NCBI RefSeq assembly: GCF_004210375.1
Contig: NC_134834.1
Span: forward strand, 90,276,170 to 90,340,169
Length of the DNA: 64,000 nucleotides
Direction of reading: 5' to 3'
Source of the DNA: Tachypleus tridentatus
Lineage: Eukaryota > Arthropoda > Merostomata > Xiphosura > Limulidae
Part shown: positions 1 to 23,283 of the stretch, one piece after another
How the letters are laid out: the number at the start of each line of letters is the position of its first letter
Position numbering within the stretch: position 1 is the stretch's first letter
Position numbers and translations under genes: made by a program
Notes under the pieces: model-generated
What the model was told of the DNA's origin: nothing
Seen by the model: only the letters and a program-made list of their open reading frames with translations
Database searches by the model: none

Positions 1-345
1 GCTTTTCACCTCACAATCATAATCTTTAAGTTTATTTAGAATAATATCATCGTCGATATATTCGGGTACGTCCATAAATGACACAGTAATAGTACGTTTA
101 GTGACACCATTAGCCGAACAGTGCACACCATTTACAGTTAGACCAGCATCTATAGCCAGGTCCACATCGTCGGGAAGAACAAAAGTTACCTCATATCCAC
201 CCGGGCGAGGAACTACGGCAGTGACCGAAGCAGCACCAAACGTAGAAATAACAGAATGGATAACGTCCCCATGGCTTGAAGTTGTCGTTTCCACAAAAAC
301 TGTACGACGCATAACTTCCATGACCTTCTTGGTTGATGAAGACAT
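1..345 (-). CDS. LINE ORF1 protein, N-terminal part (copy 1)
   Basis: Open frame of 115 codons from the ATG at 343-345 to the window edge with no stop or frameshift. It starts MSSSTKKVMEVMRRTVFVET and contains FGAASVTAVVPRPGGYEV and NGVTKRTITVSFMDVPEY, which match ORF1 of the full-length copy. The start is chosen because it is the first ATG of the frame and lies at the same place as the ATG in copy 2 (11546). ORF1 proteins of LINEs bind RNA and form the ribonucleoprotein; the CCHC knuckles seen in copy 2 would lie beyond the edge. No visible damage, so this subfamily may have been active recently. Confidence 0.75.
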   Translation of the reverse strand, partial: MSSSTKKVMEVMRRTVFVETTTSSHGDVIHSVISTFGAASVTAVVPRPGGYEVTFVLPDDVDLAIDAGLTVNGVHCSANGVTKRTITVSFMDVPEYIDDDIILNKLKDYDCEVKS

Positions 346-466
346 CGTCAAACAACTTGGAAAAATAAAAATCTAGCAAAAAAAAAAAGAACTACACGCT
401 CACTAGGCTTAGCTGTTAAATTTACACTAAGGCAATGAGGAGCTCGAAAACACGTCTGTACTCGTT
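1..466 (-). mobile_element. 5' end of 5S-rDNA-specific LINE, copy 1 (second subfamily)
   Basis: Minus-strand element entering from the left window edge. It ends at 466, directly against 5S rRNA positions 1-39 (467-505). It carries a roughly 120-bp 5' UTR (346-466) and the start of ORF1. It aligns throughout with the 5' end of the full-length copy at 6013-11691 but differs at roughly one base in five, far more than copies 2 and 3 differ from each other, so it is a separate subfamily using the same target site. The 3' part lies outside the window. Confidence 0.85.
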
Positions 467-505
467 GACGAGAACCGGCGCTTTCAACGTGGTATGAACG
501 ATGAC
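467..505 (-). pseudogene. 5S rRNA, 5' fragment cut off by LINE copy 1
   Basis: Matches positions 1-39 of the 118-nt 5S genes in this array. It abuts the LINE 5' end. The remainder of the gene would lie at the 3' end of the LINE, outside the window. The fragment lacks the internal promoter of 5S genes (about positions 50-97), so it should not be transcribed on its own. Confidence 0.85.
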
Positions 506-2235
506 AGTTTAATTCTCTTTCTTATTTGGTGTTTTAAGTGTTACTCTAAAGAAAATCGTTGTCGCAGCCCAAAATTTCCTAGTTGTGAAATATAAGAGAT
601 GCTTTAGGAATTCACTTTTACTGGAGGACGCTGGAAAGTGGAGCCTGATAACTCTGGTTTGCGTTACACATCCCCGGAACTACACGAGTGTCATTTCGGG
701 GGTATGGAAACTGTCGCTCACAGGCGTGTGTGTCATTGACATGGAACACTTAAATTGATCAATTTAGCCTCTGAGAACTTTTCTCAAACGTCTTTTAGTC
801 ACATGTTGGTGTTTATGTCTTCTTTATATTTCTTTCGGACCTACTTTCGTAAAATCTGGTATTTTACTCTCGTTACACAGGCCCACATCCCATCACTTAC
901 AGATGTGTGTGCAGAATTTAGATTTTTAACACGAGCTTGCATCGGGATTAGAATTATTTAATATTCACCTTCTTTTATTCGTCATTTGGCTATACACATT
1001 AATTTACCTGTGTTTATTAACGTGTATTTTGGTTTCCATCGGGAGAAGTCGTGTGTACTCGCCTCCTTCTCCCCTACAACAAAATAGTATTAAACGCTGG
1101 TTACCGTCTAGTGGGAGTGCCTCAGAAGTCGCTCTTTTGTCTCTCGCTAAAGAAGTGTATGGATATTAATGAAAGTACGTTGCAAAACTGGGAATAATTC
1201 TCTGACGTTATAGAAACAGAATGAATAAAGGAACAGCACCTGTCACACTCGGCTACTACCGTTCGCGAGTCGGAAGCGTGCCACGTACCGAGTTCCTACT
1301 TATCTGAAGACGTTTTCTTCGCGTTTTGCTTTCACTGCTATGTTTTCAATTTTGCTTTTACTGTTTTGTAACTTTTTTTTTTCTTGTTGTTTCTACTCGC
1401 CTATTTTGTTTTATACTCCAATAGCAAAGACTCTTGTCGTTATTGGAAAGTTAATTTTCAAATGCACATACATATAAAATAGATATTTGATTTATAAATA
1501 AGGTGTGCAATCGTCGGTGTCTCCGAGTGAAGGCTCTCTCTGCTGGGTTATATTTCTAGACAAAGTAATTTTACAAAACGTAGCGAACGAACGTTATGTA
1601 AGGAAACTCGAAATATTTGTCGCATCGCCTTTTCTGTGTAGCAGACAGATCCCTCGACAATTGCTTTTCTTAGGCAAAACGTGCACGAGCGAGACAATTT
1701 TGTGAAATAGGGAAACGTTTTAAATTCCATCTGTATAAGACTGCCTTAGATTGATGTGGGCTGGATCTACTCATTAACGAAGTTTCTGTTTTGTAGATTT
1801 CGCACCCTTTGTGCATTCCGAAGATCGACCCGCGAAGATAGTTTATTTCTTTTCTCTCCAATATACGTCTGATTGGAGGGGTTTGGTTTAAAGTGAAATG
1901 GAACGCGGCTCACGCCACCTGCTTAGAGAGCTGCTACTTTTCTTGAACGATCGCAGGAAATGAATGTTTGAACTTCGTTTTCGAAGCGTGTTTTATCAAC
2001 TGACTTGTTGATGGGAAAAGTTGATTGGTTCCTATAACAAAATGTTTTCCCAACAGTTTACCATTATAAACACCTAGTATTAAGGCACTTCAATTGAGCC
2101 AACCACTTTCTTTCTCTCTTTCGGGAAGGATTTTTTATCTCTTAAATCAGAAATTGTGAAAAAAAAGTGAGAGGTATCGATCAGCTCTTTGCGAGACCTA
2201 CAAATTTCAACGTGAAAAAAAAAAAAAAAAAAAAA
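506..2235. repeat. 5S rDNA spacer, unit 1
   Basis: About 1.73 kb, nearly identical to the spacers at 2354-4080 and 4199-5920 and close to those at 11732-13449 and 13568-15280. Longer than many animal 5S spacers. I searched by eye for tRNA boxes, snRNA and histone signatures on both strands and found none. Short open frames in it (for example 66-68 codons at about 1505-1705) are not kept intact in all units and look non-coding. Confidence 0.85.
2215..2235 (-). terminator. Pol III T-tract terminator of 5S gene
   Basis: Run of 21 A on the plus strand, that is 21 T directly after the last base of the minus-strand 5S gene. RNA polymerase III terminates in such T runs. The same tract follows every 5S copy here with lengths of about 12-21. 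Confidence 0.8.
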
Positions 2236-2353
2236 GTCATCATCACCCGGTATTCCCAGGTGGTCACCCTCCCAAGTACTAACCGGGCCCGCCGTTGCTT
2301 AGCTTCGGTGATCGGACGAGAACCGGCGCTTTCAACGTGGTATGAACGATGAC
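2236..2353 (-). rRNA. 5S ribosomal RNA (whole copy)
   Basis: 118 nt. The minus strand reads GTCATCGTTCATACCACGTT at the 5' end and contains the family hallmarks GGTTCTCGTCCGATCACC, GAAGCTAAGCAACG, GGTTAGTACTTGGGAGGGTG and ACCACCTGGGAATACC. The last two stretches include the C-box part of the internal promoter bound by TFIIIA. Termini GTCATC and GATGAC pair as helix I. By eye identical to the copies at 4081-4198 and 13450-13567. Followed by a T-tract terminator. Confidence 0.97.
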
Positions 2354-4080
2354 AGTTTAATTTTCTTTCTTATTTGGTGTTTTAAGTGTTACTCTAAAGA
2401 AAATCGTTGTCGCAGCCTAAAATTTCCTAGTTGTGAAATATAAGAGATGCTTTAGAAATTCACTTTTACTGGAGGACGCTGGAAAGTGGAGCCTGATAAC
2501 TCTGGTTTGCGTTACACATCCCCGGAACTACACGAGTGTCATTTCGGGGGTATGGAAACTGTCGCTCACAGGCGTGTGTGTCATTGACTTAAATTGATCA
2601 ATTTAGCCTCTGAGAACTTTTCTCAAACGTCTTTTAGTCACATGTTGGTGTTTATGTCTTCTTTATATTTCTTTCGGACCTACTTTCGTAAAATCTGGTA
2701 TTTTACTCTCGTTACACAGGCCCACATCCCATCACTTACAGATGTGTGTGCAGAATTTAGATTTTAACACGAGCTTGCATCGGGATTAGAATTATTTAAT
2801 ATTCACCTTCTTTTATTCGTCATTTGGCTATACACATTAATTTACCTGTGTTTATTAACGTGTATTTTGGTTTCCATCGGGAGAAGTCGTGTGTACTCGC
2901 CTCCTTCTCCCCCTACAACAAAATAGTATTAAACGCTGGTTACCGTCTAGTGGGAGTGCCTCAGAAGTCGCTCTTTTGTCTCTCGCTAAAGAAGTGTATG
3001 GATATTAATGAAAGTACGTTGCAAAAACTGGGAATAATTCTCTGACGTTATAGAAACAGAATGAATAAAGGAACAGCACCTGTCACACTCGGCTACTACC
3101 GTTCGCGAGTCGGAAGCGTGCCACGTACCGAGTTCCTACTTATCTGAAGACGTTTCCTTCGCGTTTTGCTTTCACTGCTATGTTTTCAATTTTGCTTTTA
3201 CTGTTTTGTAACTTTTTTTTTCTTGTTGTTTCTACTCGCCTATTTTGTTTTATACTCCAATAGCAAAGACTCTTGTCGTTATTGGAAAGTTAATTTTCAA
3301 ATGCACATACATATAAAATAGATATTTGATTTATAAATAAGGTGTGCAATCGTCGGTGTCTCCGAGTGAAGGCTCTCTCTGCTGGGTTATATTTCTAGAC
3401 AAAGTAATTTTACAAAACGTAGCGAACGAACGTTATGTAAGGAAACTCGAAATATTTGTCGCATCGCCTTTTCTGTGTAGCAGACAGATCCCTCGACAAT
3501 TGCTTTTTCTTAGGCAAAACGTGCACGAGCGAGACAATTTTGTGAAATAGGGAAACGTTTTAAATTCCATCTGTATAAGACTGCCTTAGATTGATGTGGG
3601 CTGGATCTACTCATTAACGAAGTTTCTGTTTTGTAGATTTCGCACCCTTTGTGCATTCCGAAGATCGACCCGCGAAGATAGTTTATTTCTTTTCTCTCAA
3701 TATACGTCTGATTGGAGGGGTTTGGTTTAAAGTGAAATGGAACGCGGCTCACGCCACCTGCTTAGAGAGCTGCTACTTTTCTTGAACGATCGCAGGAAAT
3801 GAATGTTTGAACTTCGTTTTCGAAGCGTGTTTTATCAACTGACTTGTTGATGGGAAAAGTTGAATAGTTCCTATAACAAAAATGTTTTCCCAACAGTTTA
3901 CCATTATAAACACCTAATATTAAGGCACTTCAATTGAGCCAACCACTTTCTTTCTCTCTTTCGGGAAGGATTTTTATCTCTTAAATCAGAAATTGTGAAA
4001 AAAAAAAAAAAAGTGAGAGGTATCGATCAGCTCTTTGCGAGACCTACAAATTTCAACGTGAAAAAAAAAAAAAAAAAAAA
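2354..4080. repeat. 5S rDNA spacer, unit 2
   Basis: About 1.73 kb, the same spacer as the other units. Distinguished by a 9-bp deletion near 2588 (the ATGGAACAC present in the others after GTGTGTCATTGAC is missing). No gene recognised. Confidence 0.85.
4061..4080 (-). terminator. Pol III T-tract terminator of 5S gene
   Basis: 20 consecutive A on the plus strand directly 3' (minus sense) of the 5S gene at 4081-4198. Confidence 0.8.
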
Positions 4081-4198
4081 GTCATCATCACCCGGTATTC
4101 CCAGGTGGTCACCCTCCCAAGTACTAACCGGGCCCGCCGTTGCTTAGCTTCGGTGATCGGACGAGAACCGGCGCTTTCAACGTGGTATGAACGATGAC
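4081..4198 (-). rRNA. 5S ribosomal RNA (whole copy)
   Basis: 118 nt, by eye identical to the copy at 2236-2353, with the complete A/intermediate/C-box internal control region and a T20 terminator. Distance to the previous gene start is 1845 bp. Confidence 0.97.
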
Positions 4199-5920
4199 AG
4201 TTTAATTCTCTTTCTTATTTGGTGTTTTAAGTGTTACTCTAAAGAAAATCGTTGTCGCAGCCCAAAATTTCCTAGTTGTGAAATATAAGAGATGCTTTAG
4301 TAATTCACTTTTACTGGAGGACGCTGGAAAGTGGAGCCTGATAACTCTGGTTTGCGTTACACATCCCCGGAACTACACGAGTGTCATTTCGGGGGTATGG
4401 AAACTGTCGCTCACAGGCGTGTGTGTCATTGACATGGAACACTTAAATTGATCAATTTAGCCTCTGAGAACTTTTCTCAAACGTCTTTTAGTCACATGTT
4501 GGTGTTTATGTCTTCTTTATATTTCTTTCGGACCTACTTTCGTAAAATCTGGTATTTTACTCTCGTTACACAGGCCCACATCCCATCACTTACAGATGTG
4601 TGTGCAGAATTTAGATTTTAACACGAGCTTGCATCGGGATTAGAATTATTTAATATTCACCTTCTTTTATTCGTCATTTGGCTATACACATTAATTTACC
4701 TGTGTTTATTAACGTGTATTTTGGTTTCCATCGGGAGAAGTCGTGTGTACTCGCCTCCTTCTCCCCTACAACAAAATAGTATTAAACGCTGGTTACCGTC
4801 TAGTGGGAGTGCCTCAGAAGTCGCTCTTTTGTCTCTCGCTAAAGAAGTGTATGGATATTAATGAAAGTACGTTGCAAAACTGGGAATAATTCTCTGACGT
4901 TATAGAAACAGAATGAATAAAGGAACAGCACCTGTCACACTCGGCTACTACCGTTCGCGAGTCGGAAGCGTGCCACGTACCGAGTTCCTACTTATCTGAA
5001 GACGTTTTCTTCGCGTTTTGCTTTCACTGCTATGTTTTCAATTTTGCTTTTACTGTTTTGTAACTTTTTTTTTTCTTGTTGTTTCTACTCGCCTATTTTG
5101 TTTTATACTCCAATAGCAAAGACTCTTGTCGTTATTGGAAAGTTAATTTTCAAATGCACATACATATAAAATAGATATTTGATTTATAAATAAGGTGTGC
5201 AATCGTCGGTGTCTCCGAGTGAAGGCTCTCTCTGCTGGGTTATATTTCTAGACAAAGTAATTTTACAAAACGTAGCGAACGAACGTTATGTAAGGAAACT
5301 CGAAATATTTGTCGCATCGCCTTTTCTGTGTAGCAGACAGATCCCTCGACAATTGCTTTTTCTTAGGCAAAACGTGCACGAGCGAGACAATTTTGTGAAA
5401 TAGGGAAACGTTTTAAATTCCATCTGTATAAGACTGCCTTAGATTGATGTGGGCTGGATCTACTCATTAACGAAGTTTCTGTTTTGTAGATTTCGCACCC
5501 TTTGTGCATTCCGAAGATCGACCCGCGAAGATAGTTTATTTCTTTTCTCTTCAATATACGTCTGATTGGAGGGGTTTGGTTTAAAGTGAAATGGAACGCG
5601 GCTCACGCCACCTGCTTAGAGAGCTGCTACTTTTCTTGAACGATCGCAGGAAATGAATGTTTGAACTTCGTTTTCGAAGCGTGTTTTATCAACTGACTTG
5701 TTGATGGGAAAAGTTGAATAGTTCCTATAACAAAAATGTTTTCCCAACAGTTTACCATTATAAACACCTAGTATTAAGGCACTTCAATTGAGCCAACCAC
5801 TTTCTTTCTCTCTTTCGGGAAGGATTTTTATCTCTTAAATCAGAAATTGTGAAAAAAATTTGAGAGGTATCGATCAGCTCTTTGCGAGACCTACAAATTT
5901 CAACGTGAAAAAAAAAAAAA
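4199..5920. repeat. 5S rDNA spacer, unit 3
   Basis: About 1.72 kb. Belongs with units 1 and 2 to the left spacer variant (GTGTCTCCGAGTGAAGGCTC near 5206; TGAGAACTTTTC near 4465). No gene recognised in it. Confidence 0.85.
5908..5920 (-). terminator. Pol III T-tract after the interrupted 5S gene
   Basis: 13 A on the plus strand directly after the 3' part of the split 5S gene. Still in place, so any transcript started at the remaining internal promoter could end normally. Confidence 0.7.
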
Positions 5921-6012
5921 GTCATCATCACCCGGTATTCCCAGGTGGTCACCCTCCCAAGTACTAACCGGGCCCGCCGTTGCTTAGCTTCGGTGATCGG
6001 ACGAGAACCGGC
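5921..6012 (-). pseudogene. 5S rRNA, 3' part split by LINE copy 2
   Basis: 92 nt matching 5S positions 27-118, including the whole internal promoter region. It abuts the poly(A) end of the LINE. Positions 27-40 (GCCGGTTCTCGTCC) are present here and again at the other end of the LINE (11692-11705), the target-site duplication. Confidence 0.93.
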
Positions 6013-6293
6013 TTTTTTTTTTTTTTTCTCTTTATTTATCCCACCTCAACGAGGGGGTATACACAGAAATACAACAAATAAAACACAAGTTAATGAATTA
6101 GCATGTAACAATAACTCTGTAGATTACCATGCTGAAAATACCACAAAGTTAATAAAATTAGATAAAAAAGAAAAAAAAAGAGGTAATTGGAACAGCAGGT
6201 AATCCAACAAACATTACAATTTACATTAACAAACAAGAAATCAATGGATCTTTCATTGGTAACAAATAAAATGCAAATAAATAACAACTTATC

Positions 6294-9200
6294 TTAACAA
6301 CGTACACAAGAATAACCTTGGGCACCTTGGGTTACCAAGCTACCAACATAAGAATACACAGAATAAAAAACATTTAATGAGTTATGTAACAAAGATCTAT
6401 GATAATGAAGATATATATGTCTCCGTACACGCACTTTAAACATGGAAATTAAATGAATTACGCGATGTCGTGCCAAAGAAACTGAACGAGCAGAACATAT
6501 AACCTGACGTGCCAAACTAGTAATCAAACGGAATATGTTCCAGCATCTCCTGGGTAACGAAGGGTGAGGTCCCACTAAGAGGCATCTCCTCCATACCCAG
6601 TTAGATATGGGACATCCAAAATAAAACGCCAATAATTTATATACATATGACCACAAAGGCTGCACAAAAGGACATAGGAAAAACAGATGGTCTATGGTTT
6701 CCCGCGCCTGTGAACAGAAAGTGCACAACCCTGTGGGATGTCTGTCCATATGTACTAGCTTGACATAAGTGGTTATCGCCGCAACCAAAGTAAATAATCC
6801 ACATCACAAACATGAAAACCCACAAAAGAAGAATAAGCGTTTTTTTCGAATGAGTTTCCAATCTCCAGGAGGAACAATATCCCCCCAGTAGAATGGAGCA
6901 GGTAAATTAGTAGCTAGTGAACACTGTATATGACCCACCAGTTGCTTCACAGATAAACCTTGAAAATGAACCCGGTTATCAGAGTGGTCCAGAAAATATA
7001 AATCTACAACAAGTGTGGTCGATGGGAGAGGAGCCGGCTGGTTGGACAAAACCGTCAACCAGTCCACAGGCAACGCCTCCTTCAGCATATTAAAATGTGA
7101 AACAATTGTGCGGACATTGACCAACGGATCAGCGTCCGTACACATTTCAATCACCGCCCTCACCGGAAGAAAACCTGGGAGCACCTCGTACAACAAATGT
7201 CGGACCTGAACCAAACCTGCGTTGATAAATTCAGGAAAATTAAATGTTCGGTTCCGAACATCCACAATAGCCGGATTGAAAACAAAGGTTCATCAAAATT
7301 TGTGGGGAAAGAGGAGCTGCGACAATCCCTCTTTCCCCAAGAAGAACCTTCCAGGCATGAAACATTTCCTGAATATACAAAGGTAACGATTTCACAAAAC
7401 GTGGCAAAATTCGGCATTGAAGAATCCGAAAGCCCAAAGCGAGATTGCCATAACAAGAAAAAATCCAGAAAGAAGTTGTCGCAGGGTGGAAGGACAAGAA
7501 GCATCCAAACAACGCTGCAACAATCTCAAACGGAATGCAAGTTTACGGGCATTAATATCAACCAAGTTGATACCTCCACAATCATAACTCCGGATCAGAA
7601 TACCGTATGCCACTTTATGTATACCTCCCCGCCAAATAAAATCAAGTATACATTTGCGAAATCGAGCCTCAAACTGTGTTGGCAACGGCAGAATTTGCAA
7701 CGTGTACCACAACACAGATGCTACCAAGGAATTCACCACAAGAGATTTACCCTTTAGTGACAATGAACGAAAACGCCACGACACCAAGATACGAGATACC
7801 CTGCGCAAAACATCCTGCCACGTATCCTGCAGCATTACATCGAAATGGGAGTGGAAAACTATACCTAAAATCCTAATAGGATCCTGGGAAATTCTCAACT
7901 CATCCAGGACAAAGTCTGCAGAAGAGGCCAAACACCCAACCCACAAACCCTGACTCTTGGCCCAGTTGATCCTTCCCCCAGTAGCTCTGCCAAAAGTTTG
8001 GCATACATCCAACACATGAGGCAAAGATTTGGCGTCCCGTAAGGTCAAAGTGGTATCATCAGCATGCTGATAAATAAGGGACGGCGTGTTGAGGAACACA
8101 TCACCCCAATACCAGTAATATGAACATTATGAACTAACATATTTCGTAACGGTTCGACACTGAGAACGTAAAGTAAAGCAGACATTGGGCATCCTTGACG
8201 AATACCCCGGGTTACAGCAAAATCATTTGTGAGAAATCCATTAAACTTAACACAACTAGAAATAGAAGTATAGCAAAGACGAACCCAATGAACAAAAGTA
8301 GAACCAAAACCCATACGCACAAGAAGTTGAAATAGATACTCATAGGCCACCCGATCAAAGGCTTGCATCTGATCGAGCTTCAAAAAGATTCCACCCTGGC
8401 CGGTACGTGCTAAAGATTGCAATAGCAAAACGAGTGTTAACGGAGTATCAGCAACGTCCCGTCCAGGTATACACCCGGATTGGTCATCTGAAACTAAACT
8501 GGAGATCACAGACGAAAGGCGACGAGCCAGCACTTTGGCCAGAAGCTTATAGTCAGAACATAGCAATGTCAAAGGCCGGCTGTTAGCCGCCAACCGTCGA
8601 TCCCCGCCTTTCGGGATAGGAACAATTACCCCGAACACATTGAACTGAGCAACTGTGGAGAGAGAAAAAGGTCAGACAGGACAGACACAAAGTCGTCAAC
8701 AAAATGAGGGAGGAAACATTTGTAAAATTCGGACGTAAAACCATCCAAACCAGGAGATTTGCCAATTGGTAAACTGTCTAGAGCAGCGAGAATTTCCGAA
8801 ATCGTGAATGGAGCATCACAAATATTAGCTTGTTCATGGGTGAGAGTTTTATCAACAAAGGTGAGAACGAAATCGATGTCGTCCTGCAGAACAATATCTT
8901 CAGTATATAGTGCTGAATAATATTGATGCAGAACAGCAGCGACATCATCCGCATCGGACACTTCTTCACCCCCATCAGTGAGCATGGATCGAAACTCAAT
9001 TCTGCTCTGTCGGACTCTTTCCATACGAAGAAAGTAAGAGGTAGACCTCTCACCCTCCTCAAACCAACGAATATGAGAACGAATCCTCGCCCCCTCTATC
9101 GTATGGTGATCCAAAGTCTCCAATTCATCTTCGAGTTCATATAATTTTACCTTAGACCTACCAGGGAAACGAGACAGTTTTCGAAGCTCACGATTGATGG

Positions 9201-10152
9201 ACGACTCAAGCTGACATTTGCGAGAACGGGATGCCCGCGCTCGAAGAAGCGAATATCGCTGGGTAAGTGAACGGAACGCGGATTTCAATGTTTCATACCA
9301 CGAAATTTTATTAGTCCCATATACTGTCCAACTTCGACTTCTGGCGATTAACAGCTTAATGGCTTTCACATATTCGGCATCCATCAACAACTGGTTATTG
9401 AAGTGCCAGAAATTAGGACCTCTGACAACGGGCCGCAGTGTAAGCTCGAAGCCCAATAAAGCATGATCTGTAGCAGGAAACCACAACGTACGTAAGCGTT
9501 TGACAGTCCCCTGTAAGGTAGATGATAGCAAAACCTTATCAATACGAGACGACAACATCTCACCATTAACAAAGCTCTTCCACGTGAAACCAGGGGTAGT
9601 CGGCGATAAGAGAGAATGCGCATCAAGTAAATCAAACTTACTGAGGAACTGAACAAAAGCCGAACGACTAGCATCACGGGAGAAACGAACAGGAAATCGA
9701 TCGCGTGACACATCCACCACACAATTAAAATCCCCCACAACGAGTAATCCCGTACAATCATCTAAGTTATAGGTTAAGGTGTGGAAAAAATCCCGTCTCT
9801 CATAAATATCGCGAGGAGCATATACTGATGATAGCAGGAAAGACGAAGTCTCGAAAGTTAATTTTACAGTCAAAACCCTACCCACCCCATCAGAAGAAAC
9901 GAATGTAACATTATCCCTCAAAAACCGCTGTAACAAGATGGCAACCCCTTGTCGTCCAGTAAGAGAATTATTAAAAAAAGCTAAACCTGGCCAATATTTC
10001 AGTACAACATCTTGAAAATCATCAGTAAAAAACGTTTCCTGTAAACAAACAACATCAAAATTAGTAACAAAGTAATCCAGATAATAAGCCAGCTTACTAA
10101 CATTACGCAACCCATTACAATTCAAAACCCCCACCCTGAGTGAATGTAACAT
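6294..10152 (-). pseudogene. LINE ORF2: AP endonuclease, reverse transcriptase, zinc finger (frame-broken)
   Basis: About 1286 codons from ATG 10150-10152. N-terminal AP-like endonuclease: LNCNGL, CLQETFF, SSVYAP, VVGDFNC, SRIDKV and FPATDHALLG supply the N, E, Y, D/N, R/D and D/H catalytic motifs. The RT domain follows (about 8800-7900): GKSPGLDGFTSEFYK, FGVIVPIPKGGDRR, DQSGCIPGRD, LDQMQAFDRVAYEYLF, RQGCPMSALLY and QHADDTTL, where HADD replaces the usual YADD. Near the C terminus is a CX2CX8HX4C finger (CTFCSQARETIDHLFFLC, about 6670-6720). Frame breaks: near 8628 (one C fewer than copy 3), near 8095 (2 bp, shared with copy 3), within 7400-7500 (shared), two A deletions near 7283 and 7297, and near 6840-6780. 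The protein would nick the 5S gene and prime reverse transcription there. Confidence 0.9.
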
Positions 10153-10350
10153 GCAAAAGACGACAAACAGGAACGAGAATTAAAATTAAACTGTATCTTA
10201 CACAAAAGTTACAAGAACAATCGTAAAGAATTGAGCAAATATGTACAAAGTACAGTTAACAATAAAACACATTCTTACACTAAAATGAAACAAACAAACA
10301 AACAAACAAACAAAAAAAAAACAAAAAAAAAAACAACAAACAACAATCAT
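10153..10350 (-). other. ORF1-ORF2 linker of the LINE
   Basis: About 200 bp between the ORF1 stop and the ORF2 ATG. Contains (CAAA)n and A-rich runs on the plus strand at 10290-10340. No coding potential seen. The two ORFs do not overlap here, so ORF2 would need reinitiation or a separate mechanism. Confidence 0.6.
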
Positions 10351-11546
10351 TTATGTTTGAGACACCGCCTTCGCCTTTGCACGAGGTTTCCTAAGTATCG
10401 GGACGTCCGACACCCGTTTCCGTCTACTGATCTTTGAGGTGTTACCTGGATTCATCGCCACCACACTAGCATACTTCCAACGACGTTGAAGAGGCACCTC
10501 CACATCGCCGGCGGTACGTTCACCACTAACCGTAAGTGGTGGGAAGTGTCGATCAAAATTACGTCGTCCAGCAGGGGGAAGACTACTAGCCCGTTCCCTG
10601 GCCCCACCAGAAACCGTCGGTCGCCTGGAAGATACATCCACCCAAGGGGTAGCTGTAGTCTCCCTTGAAATGGAAACCTCCGAATCAGCGCGTTGATGAA
10701 CAGATAGTCTTTCAGCGTCTTCAGGCACTGCACGAGAAGGAACAACCGTGGCCACGTCAACCTCGTCACGATAAGGAGTGGGCGTGGCCACGTCAGCGTC
10801 GTCACGAGAAGGAGTGGGCGTGGCCACGTCAGCGTCGTCACGAGAAGGAGTGGGCGTGGCCACGTCAGCGTTGTCACGAGAAGGAGTGGGCGCGGCCACA
10901 TCATCGTCGTCACAAGAAGAAGGCCGAGGAACAACAAGCTTGGGACAACGTTGCCGAACATGTCCTTGCACATGACAATGTCGGCAAATAAATTGGGGAC
11001 AATCGCGATATAAATGATCCGCCCCCAAACATAAATTACACACTTTTGACTGGCGATCATGCTTCACCTTTAACATAACCGCCTTCCCCAAAGGATCAAA
11101 AACTTTCACAACGTACGGCAAAGAGATACACTTTTCACTAAAAGACACACGAACATGGCGTATACCTAAATATATGCCTTGGTCTCTCTTCCACACTATA
11201 GGGCTCCTTACTTCACAAGAAAAATCCTTAAGTTTATTTAAAAGAACATCATCGGCTATATATTCTGGTACTTCCATAAAAGAAACAGTAATAGTGCGTT
11301 TAGTTACACCATTAGCCAAACAGTGTACGCCATTTACAACAAGACCAGCATCGACAGCTAGGTCTACGTCAGCAGGGAGAACAAAGTTACCTCATAACCT
11401 CCCGGGCGAGGAACAACAGCAGTAACCGAAGCAGCACCAAACGTATTCATAACAGCATGGATCACGTCCCCATGGTTTGAATTGGAAGTTTCCACAAACA
11501 CCGTGCGATGCATTACTTCCATACTTGTTTGAGAAGCTGAACACAT
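10351..11546 (-). pseudogene. LINE ORF1 with two CCHC zinc knuckles (one frameshift)
   Basis: About 398 codons from ATG 11544-11546 (MCSASQTSMEVMHRTVFVET) to the stop at 10351. A 1-bp deletion near 11384, relative to copy 1 (AACAAAGTT against AACAAAAGTT on the plus strand), breaks the frame; the longer open piece is 322 codons from about 11319. That piece has two CX2CX4HX4C knuckles (CNLCLGADHLYRDC and CRHCHVQGHVRQRC, about 11040-10945), an acidic/proline-rich tandem repeat of about 12 residues (ATPTPSRDDADV, about four and a half copies), and a basic C terminus (SRRKRV, RKPRAKAK). ORF1 proteins of this kind bind the element RNA. Whether the frameshift is biological or a sequencing slip in an A run is undecided. 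Confidence 0.85.
10740..10915 (-). repeat. 36-bp in-frame minisatellite in ORF1
   Basis: Plus-strand unit GAGAAGGAGTGGGCGTGGCC plus 16 further bases, repeated about four and a half times with few changes. The period is a multiple of three and encodes the 12-residue ATPTPSRDDADV repeat, so copy-number change leaves the reading frame intact. Sits between the zinc knuckles and the basic tail. Confidence 0.9.
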
Positions 11547-11691
11547 ATTCAACAAATAACAAAAGCACAAAAACTAGAAACAAAAATTAACTGTACGCTC
11601 ACTAGGCTTAGCTACTAAACTCACACTAAGGCTTAGCTACAGAAACTCACACTAAGGCTATCAGGGCGAGAAAAAACACGTCTGCACTCGA
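11547..11691 (-). promoter_or_regulatory. 5' UTR / putative internal promoter region of LINE copy 2
   Basis: 145 bp between the 5S junction and the ORF1 ATG. Holds a near-perfect tandem duplication of about 26 bp (CTTAGCTACTAAACTCACAC and CTTAGCTACAGAAACTCACAC types, about 11606-11662) that is single in copy 1. LINE promoters usually lie in the 5' UTR; promoter activity is inferred from position only. Confidence 0.4.
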
Positions 11692-11731
11692 GGACGAGAA
11701 CCGGCGCTTTCAACGTGGTATGAACGATGAC
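11692..11731 (-). pseudogene. 5S rRNA, 5' part split by LINE copy 2
   Basis: 40 nt equal to 5S positions 1-40, joined to the normal upstream spacer. Together with 5921-6012 it forms the split gene, with positions 27-40 duplicated. Confidence 0.93.
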
Positions 11732-13449
11732 AGTTTAATTCTCTTTCTTATTTGGTGTTTTAAGTGTTACTCTAAAAGAAAATCGTTGTCGCAGCCCAAA
11801 ATTTCCTAGTTGTGAAATATAAGAGATGCTTTAGTAATTCACTTTTACTGGAGGACGCTGGAAAGTGGAGCCTGATAACTCTGGTTTGCGTTACACATCC
11901 CCGGAACTACACGAGTGTCATTTCGGGGGTATGGAAACTGTCGCTCACAGGCGTGTGTGTCATTGACATGGAACACTTAAATTGATCAATTTAGCCTCTG
12001 AGATCTTTTCTCAAACGTCTTTTAGTCACATGTTGGTGTTTATGTCTTCCTTATATTTCTTTCGGACCTACTTTCGTAAAATCTGGTATTTTACTCTCGT
12101 TACACAGGCCCACATCCCATCACTTACAGATGTGTGTGCAGAATTTAGATTTTTAACACGAGCTTGCATCGGGATTAGAATTATTTAATATTCACCTTCT
12201 TTTATTCGTCATTTGGCTATACACATTAATTTACCTGTGTTTATTAACGTGTATTTTGGTTTCCATCGGGAGAAGTCGTGTGTACTCGCCTCCTTCTCCC
12301 CCTACAACAAAATAGTATTAAACGCTGGTTACCGTCTAGTGGGAGTGCCTCAGAAGTCGCTCTTTTGTCTCTCGCTAAAGAAGTGTATGGATATTAATGA
12401 AAGTACGTTGCAAAAACTGGGAATAATTCTCTGACGTTATAGAAACAGAATGAATAAAGGAACAGCACCTGTCACACTCGGCTACTACCGTTCGCGAGTC
12501 GGAAGCGTGCCACGTACCGAGTTCCTACTTATCTGAAGACGTTTTCTTCGCGTTTTGCTTTCACTGCTATGTTTTCAATTTTGCTTTTACTGTTTTGTAA
12601 CTTTTTTTTTCTTGTTGTTTCTACTCGCCTATTTTGTTTTATACTCCAATAGCAAAGACTCTTGTCGTTATTGGAAAGTTAATTTTCAAATGCACATACA
12701 TATAAAATAGATATTTGATTTATAAATAAGGTGTGCAATCGTCGGTGTGAAGTCTCTCTCTGCTGGGTTATATTTCTAGACAAAGTAATTTTACAAAACG
12801 TAGCGAACGAACGTTATGTAAGAAAACTCGAAATATTTGTCGCATCGCCTTTTCTGTGTAGCAGACAGATCCCTCGACAATTGCTTTTCTTAGGCAAAAC
12901 GTGCACGAGCGAGACAATTTTGTGAAATAGGGAAACGTTTTAAATTCCATCTGTATAAGACTGCCTTAGATTGATGTGGGCTGGATCTACTCATTAACGA
13001 AGTTTCTGTTTTGTAGATTTCGCACCCTTTGTGCATTCCGAAGATCGACCCGCGAAGATAGTTTATTTCTTTTCTCTCAATATACGTCTGATTGGAGGGG
13101 TTTGGTTTAAAGTGAAATGGAACGCGGCTCACGCCACCTGCTTAGAGAGCTGCTACTTTTCTTGAACGATCGCAGGAAATGAATGTTTGAACTTCGTTTT
13201 CGAAGCGTGTTTTATCAACTGACTTGTTGATGGGAAAAGTTGAATAGTTCCTATAACAAAAATGTTTTCCCAACAGTTTACCATTATAAACACCTAATAT
13301 TAAGGCACTTCAATTGAGCCAACCACTTTCTTTCTCTCTTTCGGGAAGGATTTTTTATCTCTTAAATCAGAAATTGTGAAAAAATTTGAGAGGTATCGAT
13401 CAGCTCTTTGCGAGACCTACAAATCTCAACGTGAAAAAAAAAAAAAAAA
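11732..13449. repeat. 5S rDNA spacer, unit 4
   Basis: About 1.72 kb. Shares with unit 5 a set of variants absent from units 1-3: GAGATCTTTTCTC near 12001, GTCTTCCTTAT near 12045, GTGTGAAGTCTC near 12745 and AAATCTCAACG near 13421. No gene recognised. Confidence 0.85.
13434..13449 (-). terminator. Pol III T-tract terminator of 5S gene
   Basis: 16 A on the plus strand directly after the 3' end of the 5S gene at 13450-13567. Confidence 0.8.
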
Positions 13450-13567
13450 GTCATCATCACCCGGTATTCCCAGGTGGTCACCCTCCCAAGTACTAACCGG
13501 GCCCGCCGTTGCTTAGCTTCGGTGATCGGACGAGAACCGGCGCTTTCAACGTGGTATGAACGATGAC
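13450..13567 (-). rRNA. 5S ribosomal RNA (whole copy)
   Basis: 118 nt, by eye identical to the copies at 2236 and 4081, with the complete internal promoter and a T16 terminator. The only whole 5S gene between LINE copies 2 and 3. Confidence 0.97.
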
Positions 13568-15280
13568 AGTTTAATTCTCTTTCTTATTTGGTGTTTTAAG
13601 TGTTACTCTAAAAGAAAATCGTTGTCGCAGCCTAAAATTTCCTAGTTGTGAAATATAAGAGATGCTTTAGTAATTCACTTTTACTGGAGGACGCTGGAAA
13701 GTGGAGCCTGATAACTCTGGTTTGCGTTACACATCCCCGGAACTACACGAGTGTCATTTCGGGGGTATGGAAACTGTCGCTCACAGGCGTGTGTGTCATT
13801 GACATGGAACACTTAAATTGATCAATTTAGCCTCTGAGATCTTTTCTCAAACGTCTTTTAGTCACATGTTGGTGTTTATGTCTTCCTTATATTTCTTTCG
13901 GACCTACTTTCGTAAAATCTGGTATTTTACTCTCGTTACACAGGCCCACATCCCATCACTTACAGATGTGTGTGCAGAATTTAGATTTTAACACGAGTTT
14001 GCATCGGGATTAGAATTATTTAATATTCGCCTTCTTTTATTCGTCATTTGGCTATAGACATTAATTTACCTGTGTTTATTAACGTGTATTTTGGTTTCCA
14101 TCGGGAGAAGTCGTGTGTACTCGCCTCCTTCTCCCCCTACAACAAAACAGTATTAAACGCTGGTTACCGTCTAGTGGGAGTGCCTCAGAAGTCGCTCTTT
14201 TGTCTCTCGCTAAAGAAGTGTATGGATATTAATGAAAGTACGTTGCAAAAACTGCAAATAATTCTCTGACGTTATAGAAACAGAATGAATAAAGGAACAG
14301 CACCTGTCACACTCGGCTACTACCGTTCGCGAGTCGGAAGCGTGCCACGTACCGAGTTCCTACTTATCTGAAGACGTTTTCTTCGCGTTTTGCTTTCACT
14401 GCTATGTTTTCAATTTTCCTTTTACTGTTTTGTAACATTTTTTTTCTTGTTGTTTCTACTCGCCTATTTTGTTTTATACTCCAATAGCAAAGACTCTTGT
14501 CGTTATTGGAAAGTTAATTTTCAAATGTACATACATATAAAATAGATATTTGATTTACAAATAAGGTGTGCAATCGTCGGTGTGAAGTCTCTCTGCTGGG
14601 TTATATTTCTAGACAAAGTAATTTTACAAAACGTAGCGAACGAACGTTATGTAAGAAAACTCGAAATATTTGTCGCATCGCCTTTTCTGTGTAGCAGACA
14701 GATCCCTCGACAATTGCTTTTTCTTAGGCAAAACGTGCACGAGCGAGACAATTTTGTGAAATAGGGAAACGTTTCAAATTCCATCTGTATAAGACTGCCT
14801 TAGATTGATGTGGGCTGGATCTACTCATTAACGAAGTTTCTGTTTTGTAGATTTCGCACCCTTTGTGCATTCCGAAGATCGACCCGCGAAGATAGTTTAT
14901 TTCTTTTCTCTCCAATATACGTCTGATTGGAGGGGTTTGGTTTAAAGTGAAATGGAACGCGGCTCACGCCACCTGCTTAGAGAGCTGCTACTTTTCTTGA
15001 ACGATCGCAGGAAATGAATGTTTGAACTTCGTTTTCGAAGCGTGTTTTATCAACTGACTTGTTGATGGGAAAAGTTGAATAGTTCCTATAACAAAAATGT
15101 TTTCCCAACAGTTTACCATTATAAACACCTAATATTAAGGCACTTCAATTGAGCCAACCACTTTCTTTCTCTCTTTCGGGAAGGATTTTTTATCTCTTAA
15201 ATCAGAAATTGTGAAAAAATTTGAGAGGTATCGATCAGCTCTTTGCGAGACCTACAAATCTCAACGTGAAAAAAAAAAAA
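13568..15280. repeat. 5S rDNA spacer, unit 5
   Basis: About 1.71 kb, right-hand variant, closest to unit 4, with a few private changes (for example CATTTGGCTATAGACATT near 14046). No gene recognised. Confidence 0.85.
15269..15280 (-). terminator. Pol III T-tract after the interrupted 5S gene
   Basis: 12 A on the plus strand directly after the 3' part of the split 5S gene at 15281-15372. Confidence 0.7.
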
Positions 15281-15372
15281 GTCATCATCACCCGGTATTC
15301 CCAGGTGGTCACCCTCCCAAGTACTAACCGGGCCCGCCGTTGCTTAGCTTCGGTGATCGGACGAGAACCGGC
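15281..15372 (-). pseudogene. 5S rRNA, 3' part split by LINE copy 3
   Basis: 92 nt equal to 5S positions 27-118, the same breakpoint as at 5921-6012. The LINE A tail starts at 15373. The 5' part of this gene is not in the window because of the N gap. Confidence 0.93.
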
Positions 15373-18300
15373 TTTTTTTTTTTTTTTTCTTTTTATTTTA
15401 TCCCACCTCAACGAGGAGGTATACACAGAAATACAACAAATAAAACACAAGTTAATGAATTAGCATGTAACAATAACTCTACAGATTACCATGCTGAAAA
15501 TTACCACAAAGTTAATAAATTAGATAAAAAAGAAAAAAAAGAGTAATTTTGAACAGCAGTTAATTCAACAAACAATACAGTTTACATAAACAAAACAAGA
15601 AATCAATGAATCTTTCATTGAGAAAAATAAATAAGACAATGAAATAAAGAACTTATCTTAACAAAGTACACAAGAATAACCTTGGGCACCTTGGGTTACC
15701 AAGCTACCAACATAAGAATACACAGAATAAAAAAACATTTAATGAGTTATGTAACAAAGATCTATGATAATGAAGATATATATGTCTCCGTACACGCACT
15801 TTAAACATGGAAATTAAATGAATGACGCGATTTCGTGCCAAAGAAACTGAACGAGCAGAACATATAACCTGACGTGCCAAACTAGTAATCAAACGGAATA
15901 TGTTCCAGCATCTCCCGGGTAACGAAGGGTGAGGTCCCACTAAGAGCATCTCCTCCATACCCAGTTAGATATGGGACATCCAAAATAAAACGCCAATAAT
16001 TTATATACATATGACCACAAAGGCTGCACAAAAGGACATTGGAAAAAACAGATGGTCTATGGTTTCCCGCGCCTGGGAACAGAAAGTGCACAACCCTGTG
16101 GGATGTCTGTCCATATGTACTAGCTTGACATTTGTGGTTATCGCCCGCAACCAAAGTAAATAATCCACATCACAAACATGAAAACCCACAAAAGAAGAAT
16201 AAGCGTTTTTTCGAATGAGTTTCCAATCTCCAGGAGGAACAATATCCCCCCAGTAGAATGGAGCAGGTAAAATTAGTAGCTAGTGAACACTGTATATGAC
16301 CCACCAGTTGCTTCACAGATAAACCTTGAAAATGAACCCGGTTATCAGAGTGGTCCAGAAAATATAAATCTACAACAAGTGTGGTCGATGGGAGAGGAGC
16401 CGGCTGGTTGGACAAAACCGTCAACCAGTCCACAGGCAACGCCTCCTTCAGCATATTAAAATGTGAAACAATTGTGCGGACATTGACCAACGGATCAGCG
16501 TCCGTACACATTTCAATCACCGCCCTCACCGGAAGAAAACCTGGGAGCACCTCGTACAACAAATGTCGGACCTGAACCAAACCTGCGTTGATAAATTCAG
16601 GAAAATTAAATGTTCGGTTCCGAACATCCACAATAGCCGGATTGAAAAACAAAGGTTCATCAAAAATTTGTGGGGAAAGAGGAGCTGCGACAATCCCTCT
16701 TTCCCCAAGAAGAACCTTCCAGGCATGAAACATTTCCTGAATATACAAAGGTAACGATTTCACAAAACGTGGCAAAATTCGGCATTGAAGAATCCGAAAG
16801 CCCAAAGCGAGATTGCCATAACAAGAAAAAATCCAGAAAGAAGTTGTCGCAGGGTGGAAGGACAAGAAGCATCCAAACAACGCTGCAACAATCTCAAACG
16901 GAATGCAAGTTTACGGGCATTAATATCAACCAAGTTGATACCTCCACAATCATAACTCCGGATCAGAATACCGTATGCCACTTTATGTATACCTCCCCGC
17001 CAAATAAAATCAAGTATACATTTGCGAAATCGAGCCTCAAACTGTGTTGGCAACGGCAGAATTTGCAACGTGTACCACAACACAGATGCTACCAAGGAAT
17101 TCACCACAAGAGATTTACCCTTTGGTGACAATGAACGAAAACGCCACGACACCAAGATACGAGATACCCTGCGCAAAACATCCTGCCACGTATCCTGCAG
17201 CATTACATCGAAATGGGAGTGGAAAACTATACCTAAAATCCTAATAGGATCCTGGGAAATTCTCAACTCATCCAGGACAAAGTCTGCAGAAGAGGCCAAA
17301 CACCCAACCCACAAACCCTGACTCTTGGCCCAGTTGATCCTTCCCCCAGTAGCTCTGCCAAAAGTTTGGCATACATCCAACACATGAGGCAAAGATTTGG
17401 CGTCCCGTAAGGTCAAAGTGGTATCATCAGCATGCTGATAAATAAGGGACGGCGTGTTGAGGAACACATCACCCCAATACCAGTAATATGAACATTATGA
17501 ACTAACATATTTCGTAACGGTTCGACACTGAGAACGTAAAGTAAAGCAGACATTGGGCATCCTTGACGAATACCCCGGTTACAGCAAAATCATTTGTGAG
17601 AAATCCATTAAACTTAACACAACTAGAAATAGAAGTATAGCAAAGACGAACCCAATGAACAAAAGTAGAACCAAAACCCATACGCACAAGAAGTTGAAAT
17701 AGATACTCATAGGCCACCCGATCAAAGGCTTGCATCTGATCGAGCTTCAAAAAGATTCCACCCTGGCCGGTACGTGCTAAAGATTGCAATAGCAAAACGA
17801 GTGTTAACGGAGTATCAGCAACGTCCCGTCCAGGTATACACCCGGATTGGTCATCTGAAACTAAACTGGAGATCACAGACGAAAGGCGACGAGCCAGCAC
17901 TTTGGCCAGAAGCTTATAGTCAGAACATAGCAATGTCAAAGGCCGGCTGTTAGCCGCCAACCGTCGATCCCCGCCTTTCGGGATAGGAACAATTACCCCC
18001 GAACACATTGAACTGAGCAACTGTGGAGAGAGGAAAAGGTCAGACAGGACAGACACAAAGTCGTCAACAAAATGAGGGAGGAAACATTTGTAAAATTCGG
18101 ACGTAAAACCATCCAAACCAGGAGATTTGCCAATTGGTAAACTGTCTAGAGCAGCGAGAATTTCCGAAATCGTGAATGGAGCATCACAAATATTAGCTTG
18201 TTCATGGGTGAGAGTTTTATCAACAAAGGTGAGAACGAAATCGATGTCGTCCTGCAGAACGAATATCTTCAGTATATAGTGCTGAATAATATTGATGCAG

Positions 18301-18515
18301 AACAGCAGCGATATCATCCACATCGGACACTTCTTCACCCCCATCAGTGAGCATGGATCGAAACTCAATTCTGCTCTGTCGGACTCTTTCCATACGAAGA
18401 AAGTAAGAGGTAGACCTCTCACCCTCCTCAAACCAACGAATATGAGAACGAATCCTCGCCCCCTCTATCGTATGGTGATCCAAAGTCTCCAATTCATCTT
18501 CGAGTTCATATAATT
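15373..18515 (-). mobile_element. 5S-rDNA-specific LINE, copy 3 (3' part up to the gap)
   Basis: Matches the 3' 3.1 kb of copy 2 at roughly 98% or better by eye, including 3' UTR and A tail. It stops at the N gap inside ORF2, between the endonuclease and RT domains. It shares two frame breaks with copy 2 (GTGATGTGTTCCTC before the HADD motif, and one in the thumb-side region at about 16770-16870), which points to common descent from an already broken copy. Copy 2 and copy 3 also each have private single-base indels. Confidence 0.92.
15658..18515 (-). pseudogene. LINE ORF2, RT and C-terminal part (copy 3, frame-broken)
   Basis: The frame runs from the gap through GKSPGLDGFTSEFYK, SGVIVPIPKGGDRR, DQSGCIPGRD and LDQMQAFDRVAYEYLF. 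It breaks near 17578 (one G fewer than copy 2 in the RQGCP region), again just before QHADDTTL near 17463, at 16770-16870, and several times in the last kilobase. The stretch near 18001 keeps the C that copy 2 lacks, so the join into RT is open here. The zinc finger CTFCSQARETIDHLFF is present near 16080. The stop corresponds to that of copy 2 (6294). Confidence 0.85.
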
Positions 18516-19015
18516 NNNNNNNNNNNNNNNNNNNNNNNNNNNNNNNNNNNNNNNNNNNNNNNNNNNNNNNNNNNNNNNNNNNNNNNNNNNNNNNNNNNNN
18601 NNNNNNNNNNNNNNNNNNNNNNNNNNNNNNNNNNNNNNNNNNNNNNNNNNNNNNNNNNNNNNNNNNNNNNNNNNNNNNNNNNNNNNNNNNNNNNNNNNNN
18701 NNNNNNNNNNNNNNNNNNNNNNNNNNNNNNNNNNNNNNNNNNNNNNNNNNNNNNNNNNNNNNNNNNNNNNNNNNNNNNNNNNNNNNNNNNNNNNNNNNNN
18801 NNNNNNNNNNNNNNNNNNNNNNNNNNNNNNNNNNNNNNNNNNNNNNNNNNNNNNNNNNNNNNNNNNNNNNNNNNNNNNNNNNNNNNNNNNNNNNNNNNNN
18901 NNNNNNNNNNNNNNNNNNNNNNNNNNNNNNNNNNNNNNNNNNNNNNNNNNNNNNNNNNNNNNNNNNNNNNNNNNNNNNNNNNNNNNNNNNNNNNNNNNNN
19001 NNNNNNNNNNNNNNN
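18516..19015. other. Assembly gap of exactly 500 N
   Basis: Unknown sequence. The round length suggests a placeholder between contigs. LINE copy 3 needs about 2.5 kb more to reach its 5' end, so the true gap is probably larger than 500 bp, or the join is wrong. Confidence 0.97.
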
Positions 19016-20069: not shown

Positions 20070-20105
20070 CTTTGTAATCAAACAAAGAGATTACATAAGT
20101 TATTA

Positions 20106-22660: not shown

Positions 22661-23283
22661 AAATAAAATAATACAAAATGTTTCAAATAAGATAATACAA
22701 AATGTTTCAAATAAATTAATACAGAATGTTTCAAATAAGATAATACAAAATGTTTCAAATAAATTAATACAAAATGTTTCAAATAAGATAATACAAAATG
22801 TTTCAAATAAATTAATACAAAATGTTTCAAATAAGATAATACAGAATGTTTCAAATAAATTAATACAAAATGTTTCAAATAAGATAATACAAAATGTTTC
22901 AAATAAGATAATACGAAATGTTTCAAATAAGATAATACAAAATGTTTCAAATAAATTAATACAAAATGTTTCAAATAAGATAATACAAAATGTTTCAAAT
23001 AAATTAATACAAAATGTTTCAAATAAGATAATACAAAATGTTTCAAATAAATTAATACAAAATGTTTCAAATAAGATAATACAAAATGTTTCAAATAAAT
23101 TAATACAAAATGTTTCAAATAAGATAATACAGAATGTTTCAAATAAGATAATACAAAATGTTTCAAATAAGATAATACAAAATGTTTCAAATAAGATAAT
23201 ACGAAATGTTTCAAATAAAATAATACAAATTGTTTCAAATAAGATAGTACGAAATGTTTCAAATAAAATAATACAAAATGTTT
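22661..23283. repeat. 24-bp minisatellite with 48-bp alternation
   Basis: 26 units of AAATAAGATAATACAAAATGTTTC or the AAATAAATTAATACA variant, without indels. In the centre the two variants alternate strictly, giving a 48-bp higher-order unit; at the right end only the GATAAT type and its variants remain. Because 24 is a multiple of three, both strands stay open (8-residue repeats), but this is a consequence of the period rather than a gene. Confidence 0.95.

Follow-up and report, generated by a model that had tools for sequence, protein, structure and literature searches.

How does a long interspersed nuclear element (LINE) come to occupy one and the same nucleotide of the 5S rRNA gene, and does it occupy anything else? 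This question is raised by a stretch of 64,000 nucleotides from the horseshoe crab Tachypleus tridentatus (G000:C10:90276170-90340169; hereafter the window), which bears on its minus strand a 5S array with three intact and three LINE-split genes, as determined with Rfam and by reading of the junctions. Searching the 2.17-Gb genome (205 contigs), we found the same LINE family in 5S genes and inside tRNA genes, where it usually carries a head of about 20 nt derived from 5S. Coagulin (PF02035), a family known from horseshoe crabs, had 19 matches in this genome (best 100 bits) and none in 14 control genomes, of which those named are prokaryotes. We give a probability of roughly 0.65 to the reading that this is a LINE of the L1 side with an apurinic/apyrimidinic endonuclease (APE), whose RNA would start inside the target gene, and whose target-derived head would guide re-insertion and stay behind as a fossil when the target differs. 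The parts of the array are as follows (all on the minus strand; 5S positions are numbered after the intact copies).

1..466, minus: LINE copy 1, 5′ part only, the remainder preceding the window; 5′ end AACGAGTACAG (junction reading; C10:90276622 among the listed 5′ ends)
467..505, minus: 5′ part (nt 1-39) of the 5S gene split by copy 1 (sequence)
2235..2353, minus: intact 5S rRNA gene (Rfam RF00001, 106.6 bits)
4080..4198, minus: intact 5S rRNA gene (Rfam RF00001, 106.6 bits)
5919..6012, minus: 3′ part of the 5S gene split by copy 2, from nt 27, with GCCGGTTCTCGTCC at 5999-6012 (Rfam and junction reading)
6013..11691, minus: LINE copy 2 with both ends and poly(A) at the 3′ end (both junctions read)
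11692..11731, minus: 5′ part (nt 1-40) of the 5S gene split by copy 2 (sequence reading)
11692..11711, minus: 5S nt 21-40 adjoining the 5′ end of copy 2, of which nt 21-39 are the counterpart of the head on non-5S copies (junction reading, listed 5′ ends)
13449..13567, minus: intact 5S rRNA gene (Rfam RF00001, 106.6 bits)
15279..15372, minus: 3′ part of the 5S gene split by copy 3 (Rfam and junction reading)
15373..18515, minus: LINE copy 3, 3′ part, ended by a run of N; type A (sequence, tree)

Rfam matched split 5S sequence at 5919-6036 and 15279-15390, while the sixth gene is known from its 5′ part adjoining copy 1, so that half of the six genes (3/6) are interrupted, as the first-pass annotation had it. 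Copy 1 shows its 5′ junction only, which reads ...GAAAGCGCCGGTTCTCGTC/AACGAGTACAG on the minus strand (the slash marks the junction) and lies at 5S nt 39. Copy 2 shows both junctions, with GCCGGTTCTCGTCC (5S nt 27-40) duplicated at plus-strand positions 5999-6012 and 11692-11705, and copy 3 shows its 3′ junction only, poly(A)/GCCGGTTCTCGTCC. The 3′ junctions of copies 2 and 3 therefore fall between 5S nt 26 and 27. On the 5′ side, copy 2 joins at nt 40 and copy 1 at nt 39, one base short of the duplication of copy 2. The earlier claims of a single 5S site, entered in the sense of the gene by all three copies, and of a 14-bp duplication of nt 27-40 both hold, provided that the site is taken as nt 26/27 or its 5′ side and the 14 bp as the figure for copy 2, where it was read at both junctions.

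Across the genome, the 21-mer spanning the LINE site was found at 245 places with at most one mismatch, and the 21-mer with a T-run behind at 130 places with at most two mismatches, the reversed-pattern control giving 0 in each case. The split site with the T-run accounted for 63 exact and 11 one-mismatch places (74), hence roughly 30% of the 5S sites are split (74 versus 245 places), although copies within arrays are not independent insertions. One of the 74, C6:105615217, is occupied by a LINE of a sister family (L183), and 22 of the 26 two-mismatch rows among the matches listed are an intact 5S variant with GGCATTTTC. Another type of 5S array, with GGCATTTTC at the LINE site and a unit of about 1.9 kb, lies at C11:11338795-11365500 and C11:14853342-14863007, and LINE-split 5S copies occur in C11 stretches near it. 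In addition, the dispersed 5S copies L100, L183 and L184 adjoin sequence of tRNA-derived short interspersed nuclear elements (SINEs), with the LINE at the usual nucleotide in L100 and L183; possibly the three are composite 5S-SINE elements.

The 20-mer at the 3′ end of the LINE was found at 170 places with at most one mismatch, and the 100 listed were all exact and stood in contig order, not as a random sample, with duplicated blocks in the clusters on C4, C5 and C13. Assignment to 5S was mostly by adjacency to split-site coordinates (by reading for L098, L100, L194 and L195), the flanks of all 53 non-5S ends were read, and isotypes beyond the calls of ARAGORN were named by eye. The 100 ends comprise 47 in 5S genes, 45 in tRNA genes, two in tRNA-derived SINEs (L097, L099), two at tRNA 3′ fragments (L063, L064) and four at no recognised site (L062, L065, L066, L091). 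Among the 45 tRNA genes there are 27 Val, 11 Leu on C4, one Leu-CAA, two Ser, two Asp, one Thr-like and one Met, whose 3′ flank enters LINE sequence after about 25 nt, and an additional copy on C11 lies in tRNA-Phe. Specificity for the 5S site, as first proposed, thus stood in one part and fell in another: one 5S nucleotide is used genome-wide, with 46 of the 47 5S ends no more than about 1 nt from it, but 5S is not the sole target, since most of the listed exact 3′ ends (53/100) lie outside 5S genes, yet nearly all of these in tRNA genes or tRNA-derived SINEs. A strict 5S specificity was accordingly rejected on the copies read in tRNA genes.

A separate search with the LINE 3′ end, in which 40 of 283 candidates were scored, gave 30 loci, 22 in 5S and eight in tRNA-Val, the latter joining at poly(A)/(C)ATCCGC or within 2 nt of it. 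Within tRNA genes the insertion point is about nt 24-26, which separates the D arm from the anticodon arm and lies, by eye, 6-8 nt past the GG of the A box. At C5:56.36-57.78 Mb (L083, L087, L090, L186, L188, L190, L192), LINEs stand in tandem with only a duplicated 3′ part of tRNA-Val between them, and for this reason it seems, from the sequence, that the same rebuilt tRNA-Val gene was hit again.

The copies at both targets belong to one family, as judged from a tree and identities over the last 2 kb of the LINE in 31 rows. Type A comprises five rows, all in 5S, with window copies 2 and 3 among them, and type B 18 5S and eight tRNA-Val rows. A clade of 21 rows within type B (Shimodaira-Hasegawa-like approximate likelihood ratio test, SH-aLRT, 99) unites the 18 5S rows with three tRNA rows, and the other five tRNA rows stand just outside it. 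The mean identity between 5S and tRNA rows was 97.9% overall, up to 99.8%, and about 99% inside type B. Separate 5S and tRNA families are thus not supported for type B, though all five type A rows of the 31 are in 5S.

The 5′ ends were found at 150 places with at most three mismatches, of which 100 were listed. On 5S-array stretches, as assigned by contig position, 43/43 among the matches listed have the native TTGAAAG, whereas elsewhere 51/57 have GG followed by AAAG, or a near variant, and 6/57 have TTG. These 51 start with GGAAAGCG or a near variant of it, which is the 5S-derived head of about 20 nt. The order at tRNA-gene copies is the tRNA, the duplicated 3′ part of the tRNA, usually GGAAAGCGCCGGTTCTCGTC, and the LINE, where GGAAAGCGCCGGTTCTCGTC corresponds to 5S nt 21-39 with an extra G; the head letters differ by lineage, with GGACAG in nine C13 copies among the matches listed. 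Such an extra G at a cDNA end can derive from the cap. A head that ends near a fixed nucleotide and bears an extra G would be the expected trace of a capped RNA begun at 5S G21 or A22. Template jumping onto mature 5S rRNA is not favoured as the source of the head, on reasoning, as it would add the 3′ end of 5S and not nt 21-39 abutting the insertion.

A putative downstream promoter element (DPE) lies at the distance that such a start would require:

11677..11683, minus: AGACGTG, DPE-like, with its first base at +28 if +1 is 5S A22 (motif reading)

AGACGTG begins at +28 from A22 in 6/6 family copies examined. The DPE motif has the form RGWCGTG, which occurs 17 times in the 128,000 nt of both strands of the window, and 0.0007 occurrences would be expected in five positions. 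The place of the DPE and its CGTG core are described in PMC4748587 (here and below, statements on cited papers refer to the parts of them that were available). The promoters of jockey, I, Doc, G, F, SART1 and TRAS1 likewise have a DPE at about +28 to +32 (PMC4748587), whereas transcription of the present element would start in target DNA, beyond the LINE body.

Alignment of the two flanks was tried on 28 pairs: 21 gave a duplication, three gave none and four gave no readable alignment. The duplications were 21 bp at Ser, 50-60 at Val, 60 at Asp, 66 at Leu-AAG, 61 at Leu-TAG, 105 at Leu-CAA and 49 at a C2 fragment, compared with 13-14 bp at 5S by reading, and their far ends are mostly in T-rich DNA beyond the tRNA. 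A whole tRNA stands upstream of the LINE in 24/32 5′-flank loci according to ARAGORN, two of them with a changed anticodon, and a whole tRNA was also called at L123 (Val) and L134 (Phe).

The sister families, whose reverse transcriptases (RTs) are about 79% identical to that of the 5S family, are mainly found in tRNA-derived SINEs. Of 32 exact sister 3′ ends listed, 20 flanks were read, and 14 were in such SINEs at the same tRNA position, seven per SINE type; the other six were elsewhere, four of them sharing one repeat. Five further sister 3′ flanks lie in those SINEs (L124, L125, L126, L128, L130). The sister 5′ end was found at 19 places: L125 and L129 had been seen earlier, C159 was left out, and the 16 flanks retrieved comprise 10 in SINEs, one in a tRNA-Thr-like gene and five in 5S. 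SINE letters run up to the LINE in 8/10 of the SINE junctions. The 5S junctions of L176, L177 and L182 read CGGTTCTCGT+AATC/TAGTGCAGACG (also written GGTTCTCGT+AATC/TAGTGCAG), AATC being the last letters of CTCGTAATC in SINE-I and tRNA-Thr. By their letters, these junctions look like chimeras, in which a cDNA with a tRNA-type head would have paired with 5S through CTCGT, and the 5′ end of the 5S family, CTCGTCATCGAGTGCAG, may descend from a junction of this tRNA/5S type. Since the sister families are mainly in tRNA-derived SINEs, the use of 5S was probably acquired within this lineage.

As for the element itself, its coding regions were located in copy 2:

10351..11550 (approximate), minus: ORF1 region, with two zinc knuckles by eye, CNLCLGADHLYRDC and CRHCHVQGHVRQRC (sequence reading)
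6294..10152, minus: ORF2 region, with APE endonuclease, RT and a C-terminal zf-RVT, in several frames in copy 2 (Pfam)

ORF1 has no full-length frame in copy 2, and a frame of 367 aa is open in copy L122. Two CCHC motifs were recognised by eye in ORF1, Pfam zinc-finger matches being below the cut-off, and the L1 ORF1p family was absent from the Pfam matches of the LINE frames. A zinc-knuckle ORF1 instead of the L1-type ORF1p is a trait of the Tx1 group. ORF1 of copy 2 also contains a 36-bp tandem repeat of 4.8 copies (10747-10919), which gives a repeated DDADVATPTPSR; by eye, the latter is not repeated in ORF1 of L122. In ORF2, Exo_endo_phos (PF03372, E 7.7e-10) was detected on the frame 8626-10152, which bears out the AP endonuclease reported at first, and RVT_1 (PF00078, E 6.1e-30) with zf-RVT on a frame of L122. 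The frames of the window copies are broken, either by mutation or by assembly error, and at other places in the genome RT-bearing frames reach 1173 aa.

APE and RT in ORF2, a poly(A) 3′ end and a target-site duplication are together those of APE-type non-LTR retrotransposons. The nearest PDB relative of both the endonuclease and the RT was human L1 ORF2p (RT E 6.4e-33, versus 6.9e-10 for R2), and in an RT tree built from the family, 12 further LINE RTs of this genome and a single human L1, the family joined human L1 with 100/100 support, on long branches. By its sequence the element can be classed as an APE-type LINE of the L1/Tx1 superclade, on the L1 side of an RT tree with few references. 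It inserts at a specific multicopy target, as Tx1-group elements do, and from this habit and the motifs associated with that group it is a likely candidate member. No relative was found in one scan of viral contigs.

The sites, the heads, the duplications, the near-identical copies at both targets, the sister sites and the chimera-like junctions were read directly in the genome, and from them we infer the start site, the use of the DPE, the pairing and the order of events. The two-ORF, poly(A)-tailed LINE would integrate by target-primed reverse transcription in genes of RNA polymerase III (Pol III), cutting the antisense strand between nt 26 and 27 of 5S or at about nt 24-26 of tRNA genes and tRNA-derived SINEs. 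The DPE within the LINE would set an RNA polymerase II (Pol II) start about 20 nt upstream in the flanking target, near 5S G21/A22, and because this start lies in the flanking target the 5′ end of the RNA would be a target-derived head. If the letters of the next target are identical, the end of the cDNA would pair with that target and give an exact junction of 13-15 bp. If they differ, the head would enter the new site as a fossil, with the other strand cut farther on, mostly in T-rich DNA, which would produce a long duplication that often keeps the whole tRNA gene upstream, and the retained head would continue as the start site of the element. The lineage probably went from tRNA-like targets to 5S via the shared CTCGT, and then into tRNA genes with a 5S head. 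Whether the LINE in this way writes its own address into its RNA, so that the head directs exact junctions, fossilises on a change of target and moves the lineage among SINEs, tRNA genes and 5S, with the chimeric junctions as a record of the switch, is close to an even call, and we hold it tentatively.

Several observations weigh against this account. Some copies are out of place: L194 is displaced by about 11 nt in 5S and L067 inside a tRNA-Leu gene, and six of the 100 listed 3′ ends, six of the 20 sister 3′ flanks and L061 (one of the ten scored candidates beyond the 30 loci) are at no recognised site. The 18-nt 5S site agrees with Met in 7, Phe in 7, Asp in 4 and Val in 2 of 18 letters, no better than in other registers. 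No duplication was detected by flank alignment in two Leu-CAG pairs and the Met copy, and extra letters stand between the duplication and GG, 14 nt in three Leu-AAG/TAG pairs and 3-7 in 6/9 Val pairs on C13 (0-2 nt in other pairs). As regards the head, the listed 5′ ends favour the GG form because the search pattern began with TGG, the 50 further places having at least two mismatches, as window copy 2 would, and at Ser and Leu-CAA a G of the head may be target-derived. The start site and the use of a promoter are deduced from sequence. Among the sister SINE copies, L167 (C1) and L178 (C2) carry GTTCTCG as in 5S, so the SINE junctions are not all purely of SINE type (possibly these two are switches in the opposite direction), and the three chimera-like junctions, with flanks common to all of them, may be one event. 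Finally, inner branches of the family tree are weak (18/28), its starred branches force only two changes of target, and the copies lie in arrays and duplicated clusters, so that events are far fewer than copies.

The rival that survives best, though we consider it unlikely, is tethering of the ORF proteins to a component of the Pol III machinery, be it TFIIIC, TFIIIB or the polymerase itself, with a nick at a fixed place in the gene whatever its letters. 5S and tRNA genes share Pol III factors, and the insertions take the same tRNA position relative to the A box despite differing letters (Val 2/18, Asp 4/18). On the other hand, the 5S site lies before, not after, what we take to be the 5S A box, several sites have purines followed by C/G in common (5S GAAAGC/G, Leu TAAGGC/G, Ser TAAGGC/G, Phe GAGAGC/G), and the SINE copies that received a sister-family LINE are probably silent in many cases. 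Tethering has a precedent in Dictyostelium TRE5, whose ORF1 binds TFIIIB proteins, although the present LINE enters the gene itself with a precision of about 1-2 nt, unlike the windows of TRE and Ty1 (PMC5911963), and Dada transposons with overlapping targets were argued to read DNA letters (PMC8869645). The 18-nt 5S site agrees with tRNA-Leu in 12/18 letters, which in the two Leu genes compared takes rank 1 and rank 2 among 63 registers. Likeness of target letters was rejected as a full explanation, being good for Leu and poor for Val, Asp, Met and Phe. Recognition of letters may apply to 5S, Leu, Ser and SINE-I; for tRNAs in general, placement with respect to the A box fits, and overall we consider letter recognition about twice as likely as tethering.

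Somewhat less likely still is that head and LINE form one fixed element, which captured 20 nt of 5S once and has no start in its target today. The tRNA copies hold the head and could transmit it without a 5S parent, and its lineage-wise variation, seen in the C13 copies with GGACAG, would fit as well. What is left unexplained is the native TTG instead of GG in all 43 listed 5S-array copies, and also the SINE or tRNA letters at the place of the head in most sister copies. It is improbable that amplification of arrays and segmental duplication account for the copy numbers, true insertions being few, despite near-identical flanks inside the C4, C5 and C13 clusters and 5S copies that match pairwise at up to 100% over 2 kb, since the family is spread over several chromosomes, two subfamilies, the variant C11 5S array and dispersed 5S copies, with separate duplications at the Val, Leu, Ser and Asp sites; in part it is true, and it reduces the event counts, not the site pattern. 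An assembly artefact joining 5S units with LINEs is scarcely credible, for although a run of N cuts copy 3 and frames are often broken, the same junctions recur, with poly(A) tracts of differing length, at dozens of places across many contigs.

How target-specific LINEs change their target is an open question; families are usually seen after the change. The genome of the horseshoe crab combines a sister lineage mainly on tRNA-derived SINEs, a 5S lineage, 5S-headed tRNA copies and chimera-like junctions. The duplication also offers a way to be harmless, as it keeps a whole tRNA gene upstream at many sites, and the same gene can be hit again. No paper on LINE insertions into 5S or tRNA genes of a horseshoe crab was found in a literature search that covered titles and the starts of abstracts and was aimed at horseshoe crabs in small part only, with subscription papers mostly outside it.

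Among known systems, Mutsu, a 5S-specific non-LTR retrotransposon of zebrafish (PMC11202950, PMC3706591), likewise inserts in 5S genes and has, as here, two ORFs in about 5.5 kb (PMC11202950). It is set apart by its description, in the parts available, as an element of 5S only, whereas 45/100 listed exact 3′ ends of the horseshoe crab element lie in tRNA genes, and this element is also found in tRNA-derived SINEs and has a travelling 5S head. In another arthropod, Tribolium freemani, LINEs of about 5 kb likewise interrupt 5S-bearing arrays regularly (PMC11202950), but those are Jockey-like by comparison with RepBase, their 5S units occur with satellite DNA, and the available part of the source describes no exact 5S nucleotide or tRNA target. 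Dewa and Keno are likewise LINEs at multicopy small-RNA loci, the tRNA-Leu spacer and U2 (PMC3706591, PMC4640811), Keno with an APE-type endonuclease as here; in contrast to them, the present family lies inside the tRNA gene and hits several isotypes and 5S. Dada DNA transposons likewise enter tRNA genes of several types, as well as 5S, at sites close to the anticodon or to the A box; a single Dada family can hit both Asp and Val tRNA genes, and related families hit similar letters, but being DNA transposons they have no RNA and no head (PMC8869645). In Dictyostelium, tRNA genes attract the L1-group APE LINEs TRE5 and TRE3, and TRE5 is found upstream of extrachromosomal 5S genes as well; both stay outside the gene, within windows of 40-54 bp upstream and 40-150 bp downstream, respectively (PMC5911963), unlike the internal nucleotide at about nt 24-26 used here. 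As far as the available parts of the sources go, the compared LINEs thus hit one gene type each or sit beside the gene, as TRE5 does upstream of tRNA and 5S genes. NeSL-1_TV is NeSL-related and has a restriction-like endonuclease, unlike the APE element described here. It is likewise a non-LTR retrotransposon specific for a tRNA gene, that of tRNA-Pro (PMC4640811).

At the end of the window's 5S array, the run of N that ends copy 3 spans 18516-19015, and a rhodopsin-type G protein-coupled receptor gene lies beyond it (7tm_1, E 1.8e-11, 19503-20081). Because the run of N cuts copy 3 and the receptor gene follows, the place where the array adjoins that gene may be a scaffolding join. Farther on, minisatellites were observed at 22653-23283 (24 bp, 26 copies) and 30230-33308 (40 bp, 77 copies), and a tRNA-Ser (TGA) gene at 36524-36605 was found whole by both Rfam and ARAGORN.

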